Part shown: in pieces, positions 20,159-27,793 of the stretch
Layout of the letters: every line of letters starts with the position of its first letter
Numbering within the stretch: the stretch's first letter is position 1
The notes under the pieces: model-generated
Told to the model about the DNA's origin: nothing
The model's database searches: none
The model's input: the letters and a program-made list of their open reading frames with translations, nothing else
Source: Lachnospiraceae bacterium UBA1818
Lineage (GTDB): Bacteria; Bacillota; Clostridia; Lachnospirales; Lachnospiraceae
Assembly (NCBI GenBank): GCA_904419285.1
Contig: CAJFQZ010000024.1
Coordinates: forward strand, 1-32,809
Direction of reading: 5' to 3'
Length of the DNA: 32,809 bases
Program-made: the position numbers and the translations under genes

Positions 20159-21568
20159 CTACTTCCAGATTCCCCGTTTCTTTCGGATCGTATAGTACAT
20201 GCTGTTCTCCATCGCCAGTACTTTCTCCATCGGAACACTCTTGAATACCGGCATTTTCATCTTATATTTGATCCAGAAGAAGGAATACACTGCCAGGATC
20301 AGGAAAGTGATCCCGGTCACCAGCCAGATCATGTTCCTCTCCGCCGGATCGGTTGAAATATTCAGGATCATATATGCCGTCCCGGCAATACCGATCAGCG
20401 GGAACAGTGGTCCGCATGGCACTTTGAAAGACCGCGGCGCCTTCGGCAGGCGTCTTCTCAAGATCAGCACGTCAATATGGGCTAAGATATAGGATATCAT
20501 CCAGAACACTGATCCGACCAGTATGAGGAATGAGATCGCGTCTGCCGATCCGTCGCTGAGCGCGGCGAACACAAAGATAAATACACTGACAAAGATCACA
20601 CCGAAGTACGGAACATTATGTCGGTTTGTCTTTGCAAATATTCTTGGCATCATATTCATCTTCGCCATTCCCTGGCAGATCCCGGACAGTCCGTTGACTG
20701 TAGAATTCTGCGTACTCACTACGGCCAGCGCTGAAACCAGGGTCATCCAGATCCGCCCTGCCGATCCCAGGAGATTTTCCCCGTAAAGGAGATGAGGAGC
20801 TGCTGAATCTGCAAGTTCTCCCCAGGGCGTATAGTTATGAAATCCCAGCACCATGACCGACTGCACCACGCAGATCAAACCCAGTCCGATCATCATTCCC
20901 AGAGGGACATTTCTTTTGGCATTTCTGACGTTTTTCGACACAGGGATCACGTACTCCGCTCCGATAAACAGCCAGAAGGCCACTGCGATCATTGAGACAA
21001 CTCCTTTAAAATCGGAGGCCATATTATAGGGCTGCACTACTTCCTGTCCGGTTCCAAGGCCGAGCATGCCGATGATTCCGAGGACTAACATGGATCCTAC
21101 CAGCAGAAAGGCTACAACATCCTGAATTTTTGCAAACATATCCACACCATAAAGGTTTGCGATCATGACGATCACTGTCATGATCAGTGTGTAGGCAAGG
21201 CTCGGGATGGGAAGTTTGATCGTCGTTGCCATTGCATAGGAAAAAATGGAGGCTTCTACGCCGCAGGACATTATATTGCAGATAAGATATCCTCCCACCA
21301 TGGAGATCAGCGTAGGAAATGGTCCCATAGACGTCAGTGTATACTGCGCCAGGCCCCCTGTCGTATTCGGCATCAGAGCGTTCAGCTCAGACAGGGAAGC
21401 CACTGTGGTCATATTCAAAAGACATGCGATCACCATCGCTCCGATAAAAGTGACTCCGATGGCTCCTGCGCCCTGCCCGAGGGACACAAGACAGCTTGTT
21501 GCTATGACCAGTCCTACCGATATAGAGATCACGCTCCGGAGTCCAAGTGTTTTTTCTTTCTCATTCAT
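20159..21568 (-). CDS. APC-superfamily amino acid permease
   Basis: A 469-residue inner-membrane transporter with about twelve helices. The glycine-rich first helix (VGLVIATSCLVSLGQGAGAIG) is broken in the APC manner, and the helix 3-4 region and C-terminal hydrophobic pairs fit the family. AAAGGA lies 9 nt before the ATG. It follows the PII gene after a 100-bp gap that holds a hairpin, and is the last gene of the amine-oxidation locus. I infer that it imports the substrate of the flavoenzymes upstream and that PII may control it; the substrate is not readable from the sequence. Confidence 0.92.
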   Translation of the reverse strand: MNEKEKTLGLRSVISISVGLVIATSCLVSLGQGAGAIGVTFIGAMVIACLLNMTTVASLSELNALMPNTTGGLAQYTLTSMGPFPTLISMVGGYLICNIMSCGVEASIFSYAMATTIKLPIPSLAYTLIMTVIVMIANLYGVDMFAKIQDVVAFLLVGSMLVLGIIGMLGLGTGQEVVQPYNMASDFKGVVSMIAVAFWLFIGAEYVIPVSKNVRNAKRNVPLGMMIGLGLICVVQSVMVLGFHNYTPWGELADSAAPHLLYGENLLGSAGRIWMTLVSALAVVSTQNSTVNGLSGICQGMAKMNMMPRIFAKTNRHNVPYFGVIFVSVFIFVFAALSDGSADAISFLILVGSVFWMISYILAHIDVLILRRRLPKAPRSFKVPCGPLFPLIGIAGTAYMILNISTDPAERNMIWLVTGITFLILAVYSFFWIKYKMKMPVFKSVPMEKVLAMENSMYYTIRKKRGIWK

Positions 21569-21609
21569 GAGCTCTCATCCTTTCTTTCCGCAAATAAAAT
21601 AGAAACGCC

Positions 21610-21648
21610 GGCATATCAGGCCCACCTCGTTGTGAGATCTGATATGCC
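21610..21648 (-). terminator. intercistronic hairpin between the PII and permease genes
   Basis: Perfect 10-bp arms (GGCATATCAG at 21610-21619 with 21639-21648) and a 19-nt loop, followed on the minus strand by GGCGTTTCTATTTTATTT. The tail is not a clean U run, so it may be a partial terminator that lowers permease expression or a processing site. Confidence 0.5.
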
Positions 21649-21669
21649 AGCCTTATGTGACTCTGCATT

Positions 21670-22014
21670 TTAAAGAGCATCTATTCCTTCGTCCCCGGTG
21701 CGGACCCGGATCACGTTCGTAATGTCGTAAATAAAGATCTTGCCGTCGCCGATATGACCGGTATAAAGTTCCTGTTTGATAAGTTCTACGATCTTCGGTA
21801 CCTTCTCCTTTTCCACTACGATCGCGATCTGCTGTTTCGGAAGGAGCTCCATCTCATAGTTTTCATCAACCTCGTACTCTTTCGTCCCCTTCTCGATCCC
21901 GCAGCCGAGTACCTGCGTCACTGTCATTCCTCTTACTCCCGCCCTGCTCAGGGCAGCCTTAAGCCCGTTGAACTTAGACATCCCGGTAATAATCTCAATT
22001 CTCGCCAATTCCAT
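21670..22014 (-). CDS. PII-family nitrogen signalling protein
   Basis: A 114-residue PII protein. The T-loop spans about 37-56 and keeps the tyrosine equivalent to GlnB Tyr51 (Tyr53, in ENYEMELLPK). The B-loop TGHIGDGKIF and the C-terminal RVRTGDEG that bind ATP/ADP are intact, so it should sense energy and 2-oxoglutarate. The start at 22014 is chosen for homology and the AGAGGT site; its first codons overlap the AraC fragment. PII genes normally sit next to amtB or glnA; here the partner is an APC permease and an amino-acid oxidation gene set, which suggests a nitrogen-linked control of that transporter. Confidence 0.93.
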   Translation of the reverse strand: MELARIEIITGMSKFNGLKAALSRAGVRGMTVTQVLGCGIEKGTKEYEVDENYEMELLPKQQIAIVVEKEKVPKIVELIKQELYTGHIGDGKIFIYDITNVIRVRTGDEGIDAL

Positions 22015-22412
22015 AACTGTCAACCTCTCTTTCGTCACAATTGATCTGTTCTGCTTTTCTGCTGATAAGTTTTCTATATTTTTCCGGCGTTGTTCCCGCA
22101 AACATCCTGAAATCCTTCATCATGTGGGACTGATCATAATATCCGCAGCTCAGGGCAGCTTCCTGGCTTCCGCCTTTTCCTGCATTTTCTCCGATCCTGT
22201 TCAGAAGTGCCTGAAACCGGATGAAGCGCTCGAATTCTTTCGGCGAGATCCCATGGATCTGCCGGAAAACTCTTCGGATGTAGCACTCGGAATATCCTGT
22301 CTCCCGGCTGAGCATCTGGATGGTAATGCTGCCGCTGGTCGCATAGATCCTCTTTCTCATATACTCTTCCAGTTTGGAAAGCGTATCTTTGATCCGGCTT
22401 TTTCTGTTTCCT
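21995..22412 (-). pseudogene. AraC-type regulator, C-terminal HTH half only
   Basis: The frame encodes the two helix-turn-helix motifs of an AraC regulator (SITIQMLSRETGYSECYIRRVF, abbreviated here to its key residues, and ALSCGYYDQSHMMKDF) and ends with the family tail TTPEKYRK. The ligand-binding N-terminal half is missing: homology begins at about 22410, exactly where the cyclodeaminase-like gene on the same strand loses its own homology, in another frame. A deletion therefore joined the two genes. Possible internal starts exist, so a free DNA-binding domain could still be made. It overlaps the PII gene by 20 nt. Confidence 0.75.
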
Positions 22413-23069
22413 ATCACTGTCCCTGACCGCGCTCTCCACGGTATCGCATATTTCAATATTCTTAATCTGAGGCAGCTTCTCTCTCACAAATGCGGTAAAG
22501 GAATCCATCGACTTTTTTCCGCGCCCCTTAATCTTCACTGTATCCAGATTCGGGCACACGCTGACGAATGCCTCGAGAGAGGTCTTTCCCATCACACCAG
22601 GTCCGATGATTGCAGCCACTTTGGAGTCTTTCCTTGCAAGATATTTAGCCCCTACCCCCGGGATACCGCCCGTACGGTATGCACTCAGAAGATTGGCTGA
22701 CATAAGCGCGAGCGGCGCGCCGGTATCTTTGTCATTGAGCATCATCATCAGGATGGACCGCGGAAGCCCTTTTTTCTTATTTTCTACATTTGAGCCGTAC
22801 CACTTCATCCCCGCCATCTGATACCGCCCGCCAAGATAGGCCGGCATCGCCATGAAACGGCGGTCATCCGCGTTTTTCGGCATTCCCGGGAATTTAGGAT
22901 CATCCGGGAATGTGATCATACATCCGTGGGAATTGTGATTCTCCCCGCCCATCACATAGTCTCCTTTATACAGAGTGATCAGCAGATCTTCCATCACATC
23001 CACACATTCTTTCATATCCTCTACTCCGGCTTTGATCATATCCGGCTCACTTAAGTACAAAAAATCCAT
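22413..23069 (-). pseudogene. ornithine-cyclodeaminase-family protein, truncated by deletion
   Basis: The first 219 codons are good family sequence (MDFLYLSEPDMIKAG start, MAMPAYLGGR, MKWYGSN, ANLLSAYRTGG and the Rossmann motif IGPGVMGKTSLEAF). After AVRDSD the frame enters unrelated sequence that is the out-of-frame shadow of an AraC gene and runs on to a stop at 22134. About 100-140 residues of the NAD-binding half are lost. Relatives are called ornithine cyclodeaminase or tyramine oxidase subunit B and may act in amine or imino-acid metabolism. AGGAGAGGAAAGGT stands before the ATG, so the fragment may still be translated. Confidence 0.78.
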
Positions 23070-23138
23070 ACCTTTCCTCTCCTTTCAGTATACCATGCTG
23101 CTTTCCTTTTTTACTTCGTCATTTGTCACAAAATTTTA

Positions 23139-24266
23139 TCAGATTACCGCGCGAAAGCGGTCATAATGAAAAGCTGAAATATCCAGCGTCGTTTTCTCTT
23201 CCCTTGCAGCTTCCGACAGGAGCTTCCCTACGATCGGGGATATCCCGAATCCATGCCCTGTAAAGGCACATGCCAGGATCAGCCCCGGGACCTCTTCCAC
23301 ATTTCCGATCACCGGAACCCCGTCAATACATACATCTTCATACCCTGCCCATGTCCTTACGATCTTGGCTTCCGCAAGCCTTGGAATGTATTTCATGATT
23401 CCCCGGCAGATGCAGGAGGCAGTGATACTTGAAGTCTGGCTGCGTCCATCGCCCAGCGCAGTCTTCTCAAATCCGGACTCGCCTCCGAACACAAAGGATC
23501 CGTGCTCAGTCTGGTGTCCGTAAAAATCTGCATCCGCCGTCCCGAGCATCTGAGGGAACATTTCCGGCTCTGCCTCCGTAACGAGCGCTTCGATCAATTC
23601 ATTCGTCATGGGGATATCGATCCCGACCGTTCTCGTGATCCTCCGGGTGGCATATCCTGCCGCCACAATGACTTTCTCACCTTCAAAAACATTTTTCTGT
23701 GTGATCACCTTCCGAAGCTTTCCTTTTACCTTCCGCAGCTCCTTTACGGACTCTCCTGTATAGAACTGCACCCCCAGCCTTCGCGCGGCTCTATAATATC
23801 CGAGAGTCGTTATAAGAGGATTGGCATGTCCGTCGGTCGGGCACCAGCTTGCGCCGATCACTTCCTCGCTGAGATATGGATTGATCTCCCTCACCTCGTT
23901 TCCGTCGATCATGTGCACTTCAAGGCCGCATGCGGCCGCCCGGTCTGTCAGGCCTTGGAGGATCTCCAGATGCCGGTCCGTCTTGCCGAGCCTTAAGTTG
24001 CCTTCCTTGTGATACTCCACATTGACCCCCAGTTCATCGGAAAGATGAGGCCACATCTTCTCGACTGCGTACATGGCAAGAGGAAGCTCCCGTGGATCAC
24101 GTCCCGACTGGCGCACACCACCGCCATTCCTTCCGGAACCTCCGTTCCCTATGCTTTCGTCCTGCTCAAGAACGATGACAGAGGTTCCCTTTTTCGCCAG
24201 ATAATAGGCTGCCGCGCATCCGATCACACCGCCGCCTACAATGATCACATCAGCTGTATTATTCAT
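23139..24266 (-). CDS. DAO-family FAD oxidoreductase (HcnC / amino-acid oxidase-like)
   Basis: A 375-residue flavoprotein. The Rossmann FAD motif VIIVGGGVIGCAAAYYLAK is at about 8-26, followed by the DAO-family GRNGGGVRQSGRD loop, and the C-terminal GHGFGISPIVGK contacts FAD. In HcnABC-like and D-hydroxyproline dehydrogenase complexes this is the subunit that oxidises an amino or imino acid such as glycine, sarcosine or hydroxyproline. The start at 24266 is chosen because GGAGGG lies 8 nt upstream; it overlaps the BFD-like gene by 8 nt. With the three neighbours it should form a heteromeric dehydrogenase. Confidence 0.9.
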   Translation of the reverse strand: MNNTADVIIVGGGVIGCAAAYYLAKKGTSVIVLEQDESIGNGGSGRNGGGVRQSGRDPRELPLAMYAVEKMWPHLSDELGVNVEYHKEGNLRLGKTDRHLEILQGLTDRAAACGLEVHMIDGNEVREINPYLSEEVIGASWCPTDGHANPLITTLGYYRAARRLGVQFYTGESVKELRKVKGKLRKVITQKNVFEGEKVIVAAGYATRRITRTVGIDIPMTNELIEALVTEAEPEMFPQMLGTADADFYGHQTEHGSFVFGGESGFEKTALGDGRSQTSSITASCICRGIMKYIPRLAEAKIVRTWAGYEDVCIDGVPVIGNVEEVPGLILACAFTGHGFGISPIVGKLLSEAAREEKTTLDISAFHYDRFRAVI

Positions 24267-24588
24267 GATCTGCTCCCTCCTTTGCATAGATCCTCATCTC
24301 AAGCGGCCTCATGGGCGCCCTTGACGTTGCCGGTTCCAGGACATCCGGCGGGACCTGAAGTTCCTTTGCTACGATCCTCTTTACCAGTCTGGCGCAGGTC
24401 TGCCCCTGGCACAGCCCCATTCCGCACCTTAAATATCTTCTGATCTCGGCAATTGTGTACATCCCGTCGTGTACTGCCTTTCGGATCTCTCCTTTCGTCA
24501 CCTCTTCACACCTGCAGATGATCCTGTCGTCATCCGGTTCAGGTATGTATGCTCCGAGCTGATCGCTTCTGTCGTATATATTTTCCAT
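24259..24588 (-). CDS. BFD-like [2Fe-2S] protein
   Basis: A 109-residue protein with the BFD-type cluster ligands CxC (Cys25, Cys27) and CGMGLC (Cys55, Cys60), followed by QGQTC. These small domains bridge electrons between the two flavoprotein subunits of HcnABC-like complexes, where they are often fused to the large subunit; here the domain is separate. The ATG at 24588 follows GAGGG at 8 nt; a GTG at 24603 is the alternative. It overlaps the next gene. Confidence 0.88.
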   Translation of the reverse strand: MENIYDRSDQLGAYIPEPDDDRIICRCEEVTKGEIRKAVHDGMYTIAEIRRYLRCGMGLCQGQTCARLVKRIVAKELQVPPDVLEPATSRAPMRPLEMRIYAKEGADHE

Positions 24589-24617
24589 AATGTCATCCCT
24601 CACCTTTCACTGAAGAT

Positions 24618-26192
24618 CTATGCCTTAAAAAATCGAGCCTTCATCGCCATATCCGCCGGGACCTTGATGGTCAGAAGATTCGTATGGTCAAACGCTTTCG
24701 ACGTTCTGACAGAGATCACTTCTGCCTCACATACCTTTCTGCCGTCGCGCCCAAATCCATATCCCCTGTCCCCTTTTTCCGGAAGAGGCAGAAATTCATA
24801 CGGAATCGTAACAGCCGCATATCCGGGCTCGTAAGTCTCATCCACCAGAAAGACTGCCTGGCCGGAACAGGAGGCTACGCACATACCGCATCCGATACAC
24901 ACCGCATCTGCATCGACAGCCGGGAGCGCCGTGATATGATCTCCGATCTTAATGCAGTGCTTCGGGCAGGCGTCCTGACACGGATTACAGGGGATATTCT
25001 GAGTACACTCCATGACCGGATGGACTCCGACTCTGTGGACGACTCCCGGGAATCTTTCAATCTCTTCGTCGGACAGATACCCTTTCGTCAGAAGCGTCTC
25101 TGATACGGGTATTCCTTCTTCTGTTTTCTCAATCCGTTTTCCTCTGTTCTGAGGTGCGAACATTCCCTGCCGCAGGCCCTCCAGAGCAGCCTCATTTGCA
25201 CCTGTCTCACGCTCCAGCTCTTCTTTTCCGATAAATCCCAGATAGTCTGCAGCGGCAATTCCGGCGATCCTTCCTTCGATCATAGCCGAGCTTGCCTCCT
25301 CGATGCCGGATACATCCCCCGCCACGAAGATTCCCGGTACAGAAGTCTGGCCATATTCGTCCACAATCGGCACCTGTCCGCCTTTTCTCGGGTTATCCTC
25401 CATCCGGCACCCTGCCATCTTGAGCAGCTGAGACATCGGAGAAAGCCCGACGGCAAGACAGATCGTATCCACATCAAAATGTTTTTCCGTTCCCGGGATA
25501 AACTGAAAGCGCTCATCCACTTCCGCGATCGTCACACCGGTCACATGATCTGTTCCGTCTGCCTTTACGATCGTATGAGACAGGTAGAATGGAATTCCCA
25601 TTCTTGCCAGCTTGGCAGCATGCACGCCGTATCCTCCGATCCGCGGCGCGGCATCCACAAGAGCCTCCACATGACATCCGCACTGTGCCAGCTGGAAGCT
25701 GACCACAAGTCCCACGTTTCCGGTTCCGAGCATCAGGATCCTGTCGCCGGGCTTCACTCCGTGAAGATTCATCAAGGTCTGAGCCGCTCCTGCACCGATC
25801 ACCCCCGGCATCGTCCAGCCTTCGAATGTAACCATATTTTCAGACGCCCCTGTCGCAATAATGATCGAATCTCCCTTATAATGAAAGATCTCATCCTGCT
25901 TTTTTACAACGATCTCTTTATTCTGATACAGACCGATCACCGTGGAGCTCAGCTCAGTCCTGACTCCTGCCTCAGCCGCCTCCTGCAGGAGTTCCTGTCC
26001 GATCACGATCCCCCTGGTCTTTGCCCTGTGTTCCTTTGACCCGAAAAACTTATGGATCTGTTTGAACAGCTGTCCTCCAGGTTTCGCATTCTCATCAAAC
26101 ACGATCACTTTCATTCCCCGTTTTGCCGCTTCAACCGCTGCCGACAGACCTGACGGTCCTGCTCCGACAACGATAAGATCATATCTCTCCAT
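24618..26192 (-). CDS. FAD/NAD oxidoreductase with C-terminal ferredoxin domain (HcnB-like)
   Basis: A 524-residue subunit. FAD binding is shown by VVGAGPSG (8-15) and the later GIFVAGDVSG (287-296); a second nucleotide fold has LMLGTGNVG (153-161). The C-terminal part has two iron-sulfur groups: Cys402/405/409/413 and CIGCGMCVASC (Cys432/435/438/442). HcnB-type proteins lack the second 4Fe-4S module, so electrons here may leave through ferredoxin or another low-potential carrier, fitting an anaerobe. The start at 26192 is chosen from the family-like MERYDLIVVGAG and GGGGA upstream; the longer frame overlaps the previous gene. Confidence 0.92.
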   Translation of the reverse strand: MERYDLIVVGAGPSGLSAAVEAAKRGMKVIVFDENAKPGGQLFKQIHKFFGSKEHRAKTRGIVIGQELLQEAAEAGVRTELSSTVIGLYQNKEIVVKKQDEIFHYKGDSIIIATGASENMVTFEGWTMPGVIGAGAAQTLMNLHGVKPGDRILMLGTGNVGLVVSFQLAQCGCHVEALVDAAPRIGGYGVHAAKLARMGIPFYLSHTIVKADGTDHVTGVTIAEVDERFQFIPGTEKHFDVDTICLAVGLSPMSQLLKMAGCRMEDNPRKGGQVPIVDEYGQTSVPGIFVAGDVSGIEEASSAMIEGRIAGIAAADYLGFIGKEELERETGANEAALEGLRQGMFAPQNRGKRIEKTEEGIPVSETLLTKGYLSDEEIERFPGVVHRVGVHPVMECTQNIPCNPCQDACPKHCIKIGDHITALPAVDADAVCIGCGMCVASCSGQAVFLVDETYEPGYAAVTIPYEFLPLPEKGDRGYGFGRDGRKVCEAEVISVRTSKAFDHTNLLTIKVPADMAMKARFFKA

Positions 26193-26239
26193 CTCATCCG
26201 TCCCCTTTCTCTGATTTACTGCTCTGCCGTATCCGCATG

Positions 26240-26560
26240 TCAATAAGTCTGTTCTGCAGATACTCCATACTGGGTCTGTACTTTCATTCCTTCTCTCAGA
26301 GGAGTCACACAGGTTCTGACATTCGGCACTCCGTCCACTACCATAACACAGTCCGTGCATCTTCCGATGGCACAGAAGATGCCTCTCGGCTCATGCCTTT
26401 TCTTTGTATAGCGATGGACCATGACGCCTGCCGCCTTCAATGCCGCGGCGATCGGCTCGCCTTCATACCCCTGCAGTTTTTTCCCATCGTATGTAAAACT
26501 TACGAGCTTTCCTTTCTCTATCTCTCCAAGGATCGGATGCTCTAAAATACGTGTGCCCAT
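26240..26560 (-). CDS. plant-type [2Fe-2S] protein (HcnA-like)
   Basis: A 106-residue ferredoxin-like subunit with the ligand pattern Cys63-x4-Cys68-x2-Cys71 and Cys84 (GIFCAIGRCTDCVMVV, then RTC). HcnA-type proteins pair with HcnB and HcnC to form a three-subunit amino-acid dehydrogenase. The ATG at 26560 follows GAAGG 8 nt upstream; the longer frame goes into the terminator region and is rejected. It is the first gene of the oxidation operon, opposite the LysR gene. Confidence 0.88.
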   Translation of the reverse strand: MGTRILEHPILGEIEKGKLVSFTYDGKKLQGYEGEPIAAALKAAGVMVHRYTKKRHEPRGIFCAIGRCTDCVMVVDGVPNVRTCVTPLREGMKVQTQYGVSAEQTY

Positions 26561-26610
26561 ACCTGATACCTTCTTTCTCTGATTTCTCTCCAGAGACCCT
26601 GCCAGAATAT

Positions 26611-26648
26611 AAAAAAAGGGTGTCTGCTGGCAGTTTGCAGACACCCTT
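26611..26648 (-). terminator. strong terminator in the leader of the oxidation operon
   Basis: A perfect 10-bp stem GGGTGTCTGC (26618-26627) with its complement (26637-26646), two more A-U pairs, a 9-nt loop, and seven U on the minus strand (26611-26617). It lies only about 50 nt before the first gene of the operon. It either ends a short upstream transcript or works as an attenuator. I see no clear promoter between it and the ATG at 26560. Confidence 0.8.
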
Positions 26649-26655
26649 GGCTGAC

Positions 26656-26880
26656 TTAATAATTTGTCTCTGTTGATTTATCTGGTATGATATTCTCTTT
26701 TTCCGAAAATGTATTGTAAAAAACGATACTAATCGTTTTTCTCCCCTCTGTCAGTCTGTCCATGGGCGGCGCTTCACTGTTCAGGCACGGATCTGTCAGC
26801 CGTTCCGGACTGAATTTCCAGCAATTCGCCCGCAGGCTTGCCTTGAAATCCGGATTCCTGTAAAATACAGTTATGTGCAT
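26656..26880 (-). CDS. small ORF of 74 codons ending just before the leader terminator
   Basis: A minus-strand frame opens at 26880 with GGAG 12 nt upstream and stops at 26656, just before the terminator at 26611-26648. It encodes MHITVFYRNPDFK and a polar C-terminus (KENIIPDKSTETNY) and resembles nothing I know. The position could mean a real small gene, a leader peptide, or the eroded end of a lost gene. The overlapping region is also the probable LysR promoter zone, so chance is a fair alternative. Confidence 0.2.
   Translation of the reverse strand: MHITVFYRNPDFKASLRANCWKFSPERLTDPCLNSEAPPMDRLTEGRKTISIVFYNTFSEKENIIPDKSTETNY
26719..26740. promoter_or_regulatory. 22-bp palindrome, possible operator
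   Basis: Perfect 9-bp arms (AAAAACGAT and ATCGTTTTT) around ACTA, in the gap between the divergent LysR and iron-sulfur genes. It could be an operator or a small A/T-flanked hairpin. A weak plus-strand promoter for lysR can be drawn at 26839-26867 (TTGCCT, 17 nt, TAAAAT). The rest of 26561-26950 shows only the small frame and the terminator described separately. Confidence 0.4.
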
Positions 26881-26950
26881 TTTCAGTGTATCTCCACGTC
26901 CTGTAAATGCAGATCCATGCATCCCCGGACATGATGAAAGGAGCCTGCTT

Positions 26951-27793
26951 ATGATTGAAATCCATTTATTTGAACAGCTTGCAGCTTTCGCCTCCTGCGG
27001 CACCCTGTCTGCCGAAGCGGAACAGCTCCATATATCCCAGCCGGCCTTAAGCCGCTCCATGAAGCGTCTGGAAGACGAACTGGGTGTAAAACTCTTTGAC
27101 CGGCAGAAGAGCCGGCTCACTCTCAATGAAAACGGCGAGCTTACAGTAAGGTACGCCCGGAACCTGCTCATGCAGGAGAGGACCATGATCGAACAGATCC
27201 GGGAATTTGACCGGAAGAAGCGAACCATCTCCGTAGGATCCTGCACCCCGGTCCTGATCCCTGATTTTGTCTCCCTTCTCTCCAGCCTTTATGAGGGAAT
27301 GACCATCTCCACGGAAGTGACCGGAGACCCGCATCTGGAGGAGCAGATCAGGGAAAATAAATATCAGATCGCCATCCTGCACGAGGAACCGGATACAGAT
27401 GACTTCTATTCACTGCCCATTGAGAGCGAGCACCTCTACGTCTCACTGCCGCCGGTCCATCCGCTGGCTGACGCTGCCGGACTGTACTTAAAGGATCTGG
27501 ACGGCCAGACCTTTCTGCTCTACTCCCAGATCGGATTCTGGGACGGACTGTGCCGCCGTAAGATGCCGTCCTCCCGTTTTCTCCTGCAGCAGGAAATGGA
27601 CGTCCTGGGAGAACTTGTGGAGAACTCCGCATTCCCCGCGTTCACCACAGATTACGTCATGAAGCGCTCCCGGCAGGAAACTGACCGCGTGATCATCCCG
27701 ATTCTGGATGAAGAGGCAAATGTCACATATTACTGCACATGCCTGAAATCTGAAAAAGCAAGATTTATGCCCGTGTTCCGTCATTTTCGCTGA
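26951..27793 (+). CDS. LysR-family transcriptional regulator
   Basis: A 280-residue regulator. The N-terminal HTH (MIEIHLFEQLAAFASCGTLS, then HISQPALSRSMKRLEDELGVKLFDR) is canonical, and the substrate-binding domain starts near residue 90 (RTISVGSCTPV). It is divergent from the oxidation operon, and LysR genes usually control their divergent neighbour, so it is the probable activator. AAAGGAG lies 7 nt before the ATG at 26951; the longer frame has no family similarity. Confidence 0.92.
   Translation: MIEIHLFEQLAAFASCGTLSAEAEQLHISQPALSRSMKRLEDELGVKLFDRQKSRLTLNENGELTVRYARNLLMQERTMIEQIREFDRKKRTISVGSCTPVLIPDFVSLLSSLYEGMTISTEVTGDPHLEEQIRENKYQIAILHEEPDTDDFYSLPIESEHLYVSLPPVHPLADAAGLYLKDLDGQTFLLYSQIGFWDGLCRRKMPSSRFLLQQEMDVLGELVENSAFPAFTTDYVMKRSRQETDRVIIPILDEEANVTYYCTCLKSEKARFMPVFRHFR

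Follow-up and report, generated by a model that had tools for sequence, protein, structure and literature searches.

The window analyzed here is a 32,809-nucleotide stretch of contig CAJFQZ010000024.1 from Lachnospiraceae bacterium UBA1818, a member of the Clostridia (assembly GCA_904419285.1). Between positions 20,159 and 27,793 it carries a locus in which the alpha, beta and gamma subunits of an HcnABC/opine dehydrogenase-type flavoenzyme are encoded together with a PII protein and a permease of the APC family. A sequence-only reading of this locus had proposed that PII gates the import of an amino acid or amine whose electrons pass to ferredoxin. The genes on which it relied (HcnABC-like, BFD-like, cyclodeaminase-family, PII, APC and divergent LysR) are all present with matches to Pfam domains, and they lie, with associated features, at the following positions.

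20159..21568, minus strand: APC permease (PF13520, 4.9e-32) with the tail VLAMENSMY at residues 450-458
21585..21669, minus strand: stable hairpin between the PII and APC genes (-34.6 kcal/mol, z -5.60)
21670..22014, minus strand: dedicated PII protein of 114 amino acids (PF00543, 85.9 bits against a cut-off of 25)
21995..22404, minus strand: C-terminal (helix-turn-helix) remnant of an AraC-family gene, boundary approximate (PF12833, 2.2e-14)
22413..23069, minus strand: truncated cyclodeaminase-family gene (OCD, PF02423; NF004848), residues 1-219 of ~378
23139..24266, minus strand: HcnC-like flavoprotein of the DAO family, the beta, catalytic subunit (PF01266, 1.9e-70)
24259..24588, minus strand: separate BFD-like [2Fe-2S] protein, start ATG at 24588 or GTG at 24603 (PF04324, 3.3e-12)
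24618..26192, minus strand: HcnB-like FAD/NAD(P)-fold subunit (alpha) with a C-terminal double [4Fe-4S] motif (PF07992, 2.9e-39)
26240..26560, minus strand: HcnA-like small [2Fe-2S] subunit, gamma (PF13510, 5.3e-32), with a cysteine motif found in 75/75 homologues
26612..26652, minus strand: terminator-like hairpin with a T run, in the leader before the HcnA-like gene
26711..26729, minus strand: 19-bp palindromic operator GTATCGTTTTTTACAATAC
26951..27793, plus strand: divergent LysR-family regulator (PF00126, PF03466), start inferred, open reading frame from 26873

Transcription of the minus strand would run through the HcnA-like, HcnB-like, BFD-like, HcnC-like, cyclodeaminase, PII and APC permease genes in that order. 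This genome has three PII-like genes, of which one is a weak match. Because AmtB adjoins another of these, on a stretch (L067) away from the window, the PII of the window, which neighbors an APC gene and not amtB, is an extra copy. No second APC permease of the window type was found in this genome.

The association of PII with the permease was examined in two sets of loci. Of 200 family genomes, each from a different genus and including that of the window, 26 have a match to NF004848 above its cut-off, and 33 stretches were taken from these. PII, an APC permease and the cyclodeaminase-family gene occur together in 15 of the 200 genomes, with the flavoenzyme on the same stretch in all except G066, whose stretch (L036) is a short contig; PII occurs with a PotABCD-like importer in five of the 200. 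When species genomes were scanned with the cyclodeaminase alignment, at least 560 relatives were obtained, and the best 80 loci, which were kept, come mainly from Lachnospiraceae and other Clostridia but also from Sharpea, Olsenella, Acetobacterium and Gordonia. Merging six duplicates reduced the 113 loci of both sets to 107, of which 59 have at least 5.5 kb on either side of the cyclodeaminase gene. The flavoenzyme is accompanied by APC and PII in 32 of these 59 loci, by an ABC importer and PII in 10, by APC without PII in three, and by none of APC, a full ABC set or PII in four. APC and PII occur without the flavoenzyme in three, none of the four components is present in five, and two have other combinations; these shares are not population frequencies, because the loci were chosen by cyclodeaminase similarity.

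Gene order was compared in the 43 distinct loci that carry HcnB, APC and PII matches above 150 bits, with AraC omitted from the orders. PII lies directly before the APC gene in all 43, over several different gene orders. The BFD-like protein is encoded by its own gene between HcnB and HcnC in 43/43 (both the HcnB-BFD and the BFD-HcnC order are constant), and HcnA precedes HcnB in 41, while the OCD-PII and HcnC-OCD orders are kept in 32 and 27, respectively. Across all 107 loci, an APC gene directly follows 51 of 55 PII genes of the APC type; the remaining four include an AmtB fusion. A sister operon type carries a PotABCD-like importer, and there PII is directly before PotA in 20/20 cases; of the 11 PII-ABC loci in which OCD is flanked by 5.5 kb or more on each side, 10 have an HcnB-like gene. 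Only four of 75 PII genes in distinct loci are not directly before a transporter gene, namely those of L069 (where the contig ends), L075 (a second PII, within an AmtB frame), L103 (where the order is PII-OCD-APC) and L110 (a weak PII match). Thus the proposed link between PII, the APC permease and the iron-sulfur flavoenzyme is conserved, and the pair is not confined to this strain. PII and its transporter gene form a fixed unit: the importer is swapped between the APC and PotABCD-like types, and PII is retained.

Within the genus of the window, 18 of 58 genomes (its own included) matched a 1470-base query, all of the others in short stretches only, and the three best matches (G600, G624 and G638) have a cyclodeaminase relative next to TRAP-transporter-like genes, with no PII match in the stretches read. 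Three species of this genus carry a relative of the cyclodeaminase gene with TRAP-transporter-like, enolase-like and MOFRL-family genes (L210, L211 and L212; Pfam check on L210), a further uncharacterized gene set.

Conservation of gene order is accompanied by differences in PII itself, which were assessed in proteins scoring above 150 bits: 54 APC-linked (window included) and 19 of the ABC type. The APC-linked proteins have GDGKIF in 53/54 cases (GDGKIV in the other), K58 in 54/54 and [RK][VI]RT in 54/54. The window PII likewise keeps GDGKIF and K58, but has V in place of R47 and E in place of Q39, a position that we take to bind 2-oxoglutarate and Mg. R47 is numbered after E. coli GlnK, in which this T-loop arginine enters the Amt channel. 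This arginine is absent from all 54 APC-linked PIIs and from all 19 ABC-linked PIIs. T-loops of APC-linked proteins are 24 residues long in 47 and 25 in one of the 48 that were readable (six of the 54 were unread), whereas those of PotA-linked proteins are 28-31 residues long in 18/19.

Sixteen stretches around other stand-alone clostridial PIIs were read. The neighbor is AmtB in 13, an APC permease in one (L187), and no transporter is in view in two (L184 and L192). In a second sequence comparison, R47 is present in every AmtB-linked PII, adjacent (16/16, including the GlnK of the genome under study) or fused (21/21 frames), which makes 37/37, and in both PIIs that lack a transporter neighbor, as against 0/6 APC-linked proteins, L187 and the window among them. 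The pattern used for R47 picked up 21 of 25 fused frames, and AmtB sequence was confirmed in 25/25. Fusions of PII to an APC permease were also sought, and this candidate was rejected: all 25 long PII frames in L154-L178 carry AmtB sequence. No APC fusion was found among the long PII frames of L154-L178, L213-L215 and L217, where L213, L214 and L217 have AmtB and L215 has a 286-residue frame with PII only. One clostridial genome has two PII-AmtB pairs in tandem (L216, 6839-10453).

The permease carries a corresponding feature. Of 58 APC proteins in the PII-linked clade, 55 match the regular expression V-[ML]-A-M-E-N-x-x-Y in the stretch that follows the last membrane helix, and the three misses are two truncations at contig ends and one VMAMEDERY. 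None of eight APC proteins from a PII-less clade has the motif; the Gordonia permease (L127), which also lacks it, was left out of these eight. A452 and M453 are invariant in an alignment of 31 permeases. A class-wide sample of 391 genomes gave 11 APC places at E 1e-60 or better, with the tail in 6/6 that adjoin PII and in 0/5 others. This set is not independent: the six include the window, and the remaining five were already known from the PII search. The five without the tail include L228 (a short frame whose end is not comparable) and L229 (a partial tail). PII-linked and unlinked permeases also differ in APC profile score, but this gap is partly built in, as the profile was made mostly from linked proteins, and it is not used as evidence. 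In the same 391 genomes, PIIs scoring above 160 bits against the APC-linked profile occur in four genomes besides the one under study, and all four sit in the operon type of the window.

The window permease has an AA_permease domain and the APC (LeuT-type) fold. Its structure model has a mean predicted local distance difference test score of 83.7, with mean confidences of 85, 71 and 64 for the last three blocks; in it the tail forms two short helices, at residues 447-453 and 456-464. Foldseek matched the model to LAT1, a bacterial CAT homologue (6f34), BasC and AdiC with E values of 9e-14 to 6e-13.

The single APC neighbor among the other clostridial PIIs belongs to a second PII-APC pair, distinct from that of the window and set in a different nitrogen-releasing context (L187, 3109-4933). 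Here too PII has a T-loop without R47, and the permease ends in VMMMESPEY. Nearby genes encode an allophanate hydrolase (over its cut-off), a xanthine phosphoribosyltransferase and a xanthine permease, and the urea carboxylase part is below its cut-off, at 758 residues against a model of 1201. Within 19.5 kb around the pair (L218) there is no match to the dehydrogenase or OCD profiles. The L187 permease groups with the PII-less APC proteins in an unrooted tree, with weak support. In 398 phylum-level genomes no other permease of this type was found at E 1e-90 except that of the window itself. The L187 pair is the main second independent event for the changes in tail and T-loop.

Partner-specific changes in the T-loop of PII and in the tail of the permease would fit a physical PII-permease pair, and they support one. 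On the whole, the best explanation is probably that PII directly opens and closes the permease in this operon type. The APC permease would import a small nitrogen-containing molecule, which would then be oxidized by the HcnABC/opine-dehydrogenase-like complex, with FAD, FMN and iron-sulfur cofactors as judged from its relatives. Ammonia would be released from the resulting imine or aldehyde, a step in which the cyclodeaminase-family enzyme, and sometimes a RidA-family protein, would assist in relatives. When the cell is rich in nitrogen (the ADP state, or low 2-oxoglutarate), the dedicated PII would bind the cytosolic C-terminal tail of the permease and slow or stop import, such that ammonia would not be over-produced. 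We infer the binding of PII to the permease, the direction of its effect, the effector and the substrate. Of the gating proposed from sequence at the outset, the conserved link and the partner-specific sequences are what the data provide, and gating itself is the best reading of them. A more general version, which we regard as about evenly balanced, is that dedicated PII paralogues are plug-in gates within one nitrogen-releasing pathway, one type having evolved to hold an APC tail peptide and another a PotA-type ATPase, each with a T-loop remodeled to suit its partner.

Several observations weigh against direct gating. The tail of L229 is partly motif-like (VIAMD, with no tyrosine) although no PII is adjacent, and the clade permeases of L049, L072 and L103 have the tail with no PII directly before them. 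In L103 the PII gene is one gene away, the source genome of L049 (G083) has a PII-APC pair elsewhere (L045), and no PII was found on the contig of L072. Because the PII-linked permeases belong mostly to one clade, few independent events underlie the differences in tail and T-loop. The chemistry does not require PII, since the same enzymes occur in some loci that lack both PII and an APC permease of this clade. The position of Q39 is occupied by E in 38 and by Q in 16 of the 54 APC-linked PIIs, and 2-oxoglutarate may for that reason not be an effector. In the window, the stable hairpin between the PII and APC genes makes their co-transcription less than certain, and the OCD gene of this strain is broken.

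PII proteins elsewhere bind enzymes and regulators. The PII described here could likewise regulate the dehydrogenase complex or a transcription factor of the operon, its place before the permease being a matter of operon history. In both operon types PII keeps its linkage to the same enzymes, and the GlnK of C. glutamicum acts on the regulator AmtR (PMC9397018). However, PII stays before the transporter gene in 43/43 and 20/20 loci while HcnC and OCD change neighbors, the length of the T-loop tracks the type of transporter, and the L187 pair has neither dehydrogenase nor OCD matches nearby, which together make an enzyme or regulator an unlikely target. That the protein is an ordinary second GlnK serving AmtB, linked to the permease through shared expression under nitrogen limitation, is very improbable: its nucleotide-site residues are kept, as K58 and GDGKIF indicate, but R47 is missing from all APC-linked proteins and present in all AmtB-linked ones, and the genome has a separate AmtB-GlnK pair that retains it.

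The enzymes bear on the nature of the imported compound. The HcnB-like subunit had been credited with an extra ferredoxin domain, and the two [4Fe-4S]-type cysteine motifs of this domain are indeed present in 72/73 and 73/73 homologues above 900 bits. It is possible that electrons reach ferredoxin via this added domain. The BFD motif CxC...CxxxxC occurs in 74/74 homologues. A RidA-family gene (PF01042) is found in seven distinct loci of the set (two members checked) and also in L181-L183 (two checked), and the genes of the pathway point to imine chemistry with release of ammonia.

Amines or polyamines are the favored substrate class, although for the APC type the evidence is indirect. In Gordonia (L127), the neighbors of this OCD subfamily are an aldehyde dehydrogenase, a copper primary-amine oxidase (NF008559, 920 bits) and an APC permease, which is the probable origin of the label 'tyramine oxidase subunit B' that NF004848 carries. 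Members of the agmatine deiminase and N-carbamoylputrescine amidase clusters occur in five distinct loci, three of them ABC-PII and none APC-PII, and the one member of each that was checked exceeds its NCBIfam cut-off. The argument from these genes is indirect for the window, because neither of them turned up in an APC-type locus. Genes for a YqhD-like iron alcohol dehydrogenase lie in 14/19 ABC-PII loci and in one APC-PII locus, with a similarity below the curated cut-off, and the PotA of L052 is above the cut-off of TIGR01187. Loci of the sister operon type (L052, L054, L055, L059, L063 and others) have two cyclodeaminase-family genes, the flavoenzyme, the YqhD-like alcohol dehydrogenase and sometimes aguA/aguB.

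A pathway for amino acids such as D-proline, pipecolate or opine-like compounds, in which the flavoenzyme makes an imino acid and the cyclodeaminase-family enzyme reduces it, is a serious competitor that we judge somewhat short of an even chance. The best solved relative of the HcnC-like protein is 1y56_B (2.7e-39), labeled sarcosine oxidase, which we take to be a proline dehydrogenase subunit. Solved relatives of OCD include 4m54, a 'putative ornithine cyclodeaminase' that is presumably SbnB, as well as pyrroline-2-carboxylate reductase and alanine dehydrogenase. Opine and D-hydroxyproline dehydrogenases are enzymes of this kind, described as alpha4beta4gamma4 assemblies with two FAD, one FMN and a [2Fe-2S] cluster (PMC4575208). 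Against amino acids stand the copper primary-amine oxidase that adjoins the OCD subfamily in Gordonia L127 and the agmatine deiminase, N-carbamoylputrescine amidase and PotABCD-like genes beside it in some ABC-type loci.

In the window itself, the cyclodeaminase-family gene that had been counted in the set is not intact. It ends after residue 219, where intact relatives have ~378 residues by alignment, and runs out of frame into the C-terminal half of an AraC gene that is truncated as well. Its match to NF004848 (388 bits against a cut-off of 362) covers the first 225 of 379 profile positions over those 219 residues only. Two alignable blocks indicate that ~915 bp are missing relative to the closest relative, L040, and many relatives have intact cyclodeaminase and AraC genes at the same place. 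Because both genes are truncated, the pathway may be altered or decaying in this strain. An assembly error that conceals intact genes might be suspected in a draft of 51 contigs whose relatives carry both genes whole, but the genes flanking the junction are intact and we consider such an error doubtful.

The palindrome GTATCGTTTTTTACAATAC lies ~150 bp before the HcnA-like gene. Allowing 0-3 mismatches, it occurs in the genome under study at the window site only, and a role as a global nitrogen operator is rejected for this genome, where the 19-bp motif occurs once. At three mismatches or fewer it is present in 23/54 APC-PII loci (window included), 0/20 ABC-PII loci and 3/34 loci without PII, and one mononucleotide shuffle of the 1.72 Mb gave no matches. 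In a set of 42 loci that have HcnA, an upstream region of 200 bp or more and an APC match above 600 bits (the window is not among them), the operator is found in 19/20 with an in-operon AraC gene versus 1/22 without (Fisher p 1.3e-9, ignoring relatedness). The exceptions are L096, which has the motif and an AraC match of only 152 bits, and L092, which has AraC and carries copies of the motif elsewhere in the operon. This co-occurrence makes the in-operon AraC protein the likely reader of the operator, and in the window the site is perfect while the AraC gene is truncated. The divergent LysR gene noted at the outset is not a constant part of the system: 20 of the 42 loci have the in-operon AraC of one type instead, and the divergent LysR of some relatives belongs to another type. 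A LuxR-type gene (L144, 2742-3491, and relatives) lies near 16/19 ABC-PII and four APC-PII loci, and it is probably a regulator of these loci.

The leader hairpin at 26612-26652 has a 12-pair stem, a loop of nine nucleotides and a T run, and the RNA fold of 26600-26700 has a z of -4.79. It was not listed by the terminator scan, as its loop exceeds the limit of the scan. Terminator-like hairpins precede HcnA in 14/75 upstream regions (window included) compared with 0/75 in one shuffle of each, and that of the window is possibly a plain attenuator or terminator. A riboswitch was considered for the leader and rejected: the window has no Rfam match at gathering thresholds and the two leader matches are weak (E 1.7 and 4.5). 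The idea was dropped because no Rfam family applied and the stretch from operator to hairpin looked too short for an aptamer. The hairpin between the PII and APC genes is followed by a T-rich stretch and may lower or stabilize the permease mRNA.

No PII-APC operon is named in the open-access literature that was searched. As in GlnK-AmtB, the PII gene is directly beside a membrane transporter gene, and a nitrogen source would, as proposed here, be gated by contact. Unlike that pair, the partner in the window is an APC permease with a specific tail, and R47 is missing from the T-loop. Cyanobacterial PII binds the ABC transporters for nitrate and urea through NrtC/NrtD and UrtE (PMC6603209), and this control of a non-Amt nitrogen importer by PII is the nearest precedent for the proposed gating. 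That account has one cyanobacterial PII serving several systems and acting on ABC targets, whereas the window has a dedicated PII gene inside the operon of its importer, and an APC-type target would be a secondary transporter (PMC6603209).

The enzyme shares its alpha (Pyr_redox), beta (DAO) and gamma ([2Fe-2S]) subunits with HcnABC, opine dehydrogenase, D-hydroxyproline dehydrogenase and archaeal L-proline dehydrogenase. Alpha subunits of the opine type have an internal second [2Fe-2S] motif of the BFD type (PMC4575208), while BFD is a separate gene in the window. The window alpha subunit also differs from HcnABC-type systems in having gained two [4Fe-4S] motifs, and its operon adds PII and a permease. 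NF004848 matched four control genomes, one of them above the cut-off, and C. glutamicum is among the four; its matching gene is presumably the ocd of amt-ocd-soxA. The amt-ocd-soxA genes belong to the nitrogen (AmtR) regulon and, as proposed for the window, OCD and sarcosine-oxidase genes accompany a nitrogen transporter under nitrogen control (PMC1578569). This arrangement differs from the window in that control is transcriptional, the transporter is Amt and the operon is without PII (PMC1578569).

Many gut and rumen bacteria share an operon type for the breakdown of a nitrogen-rich compound, with a spare PII nearly always directly before the importer gene. If direct gating is correct, the large family of APC permeases would join ammonium channels and a handful of ABC importers as targets of control by PII. 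On the more general plug-in version, PII would act directly on a secondary transporter of the LeuT fold and on a polyamine-type ABC importer. Direct gating would also show that PII can be re-targeted through changes in one loop. The tail motif with an adjacent PII gene would then serve as a marker of nitrogen-controlled uptake of amines or amino acids in gut and rumen bacteria, and a nitrogen role is predicted for an uncharacterized flavo-iron-sulfur pathway of many gut anaerobes.

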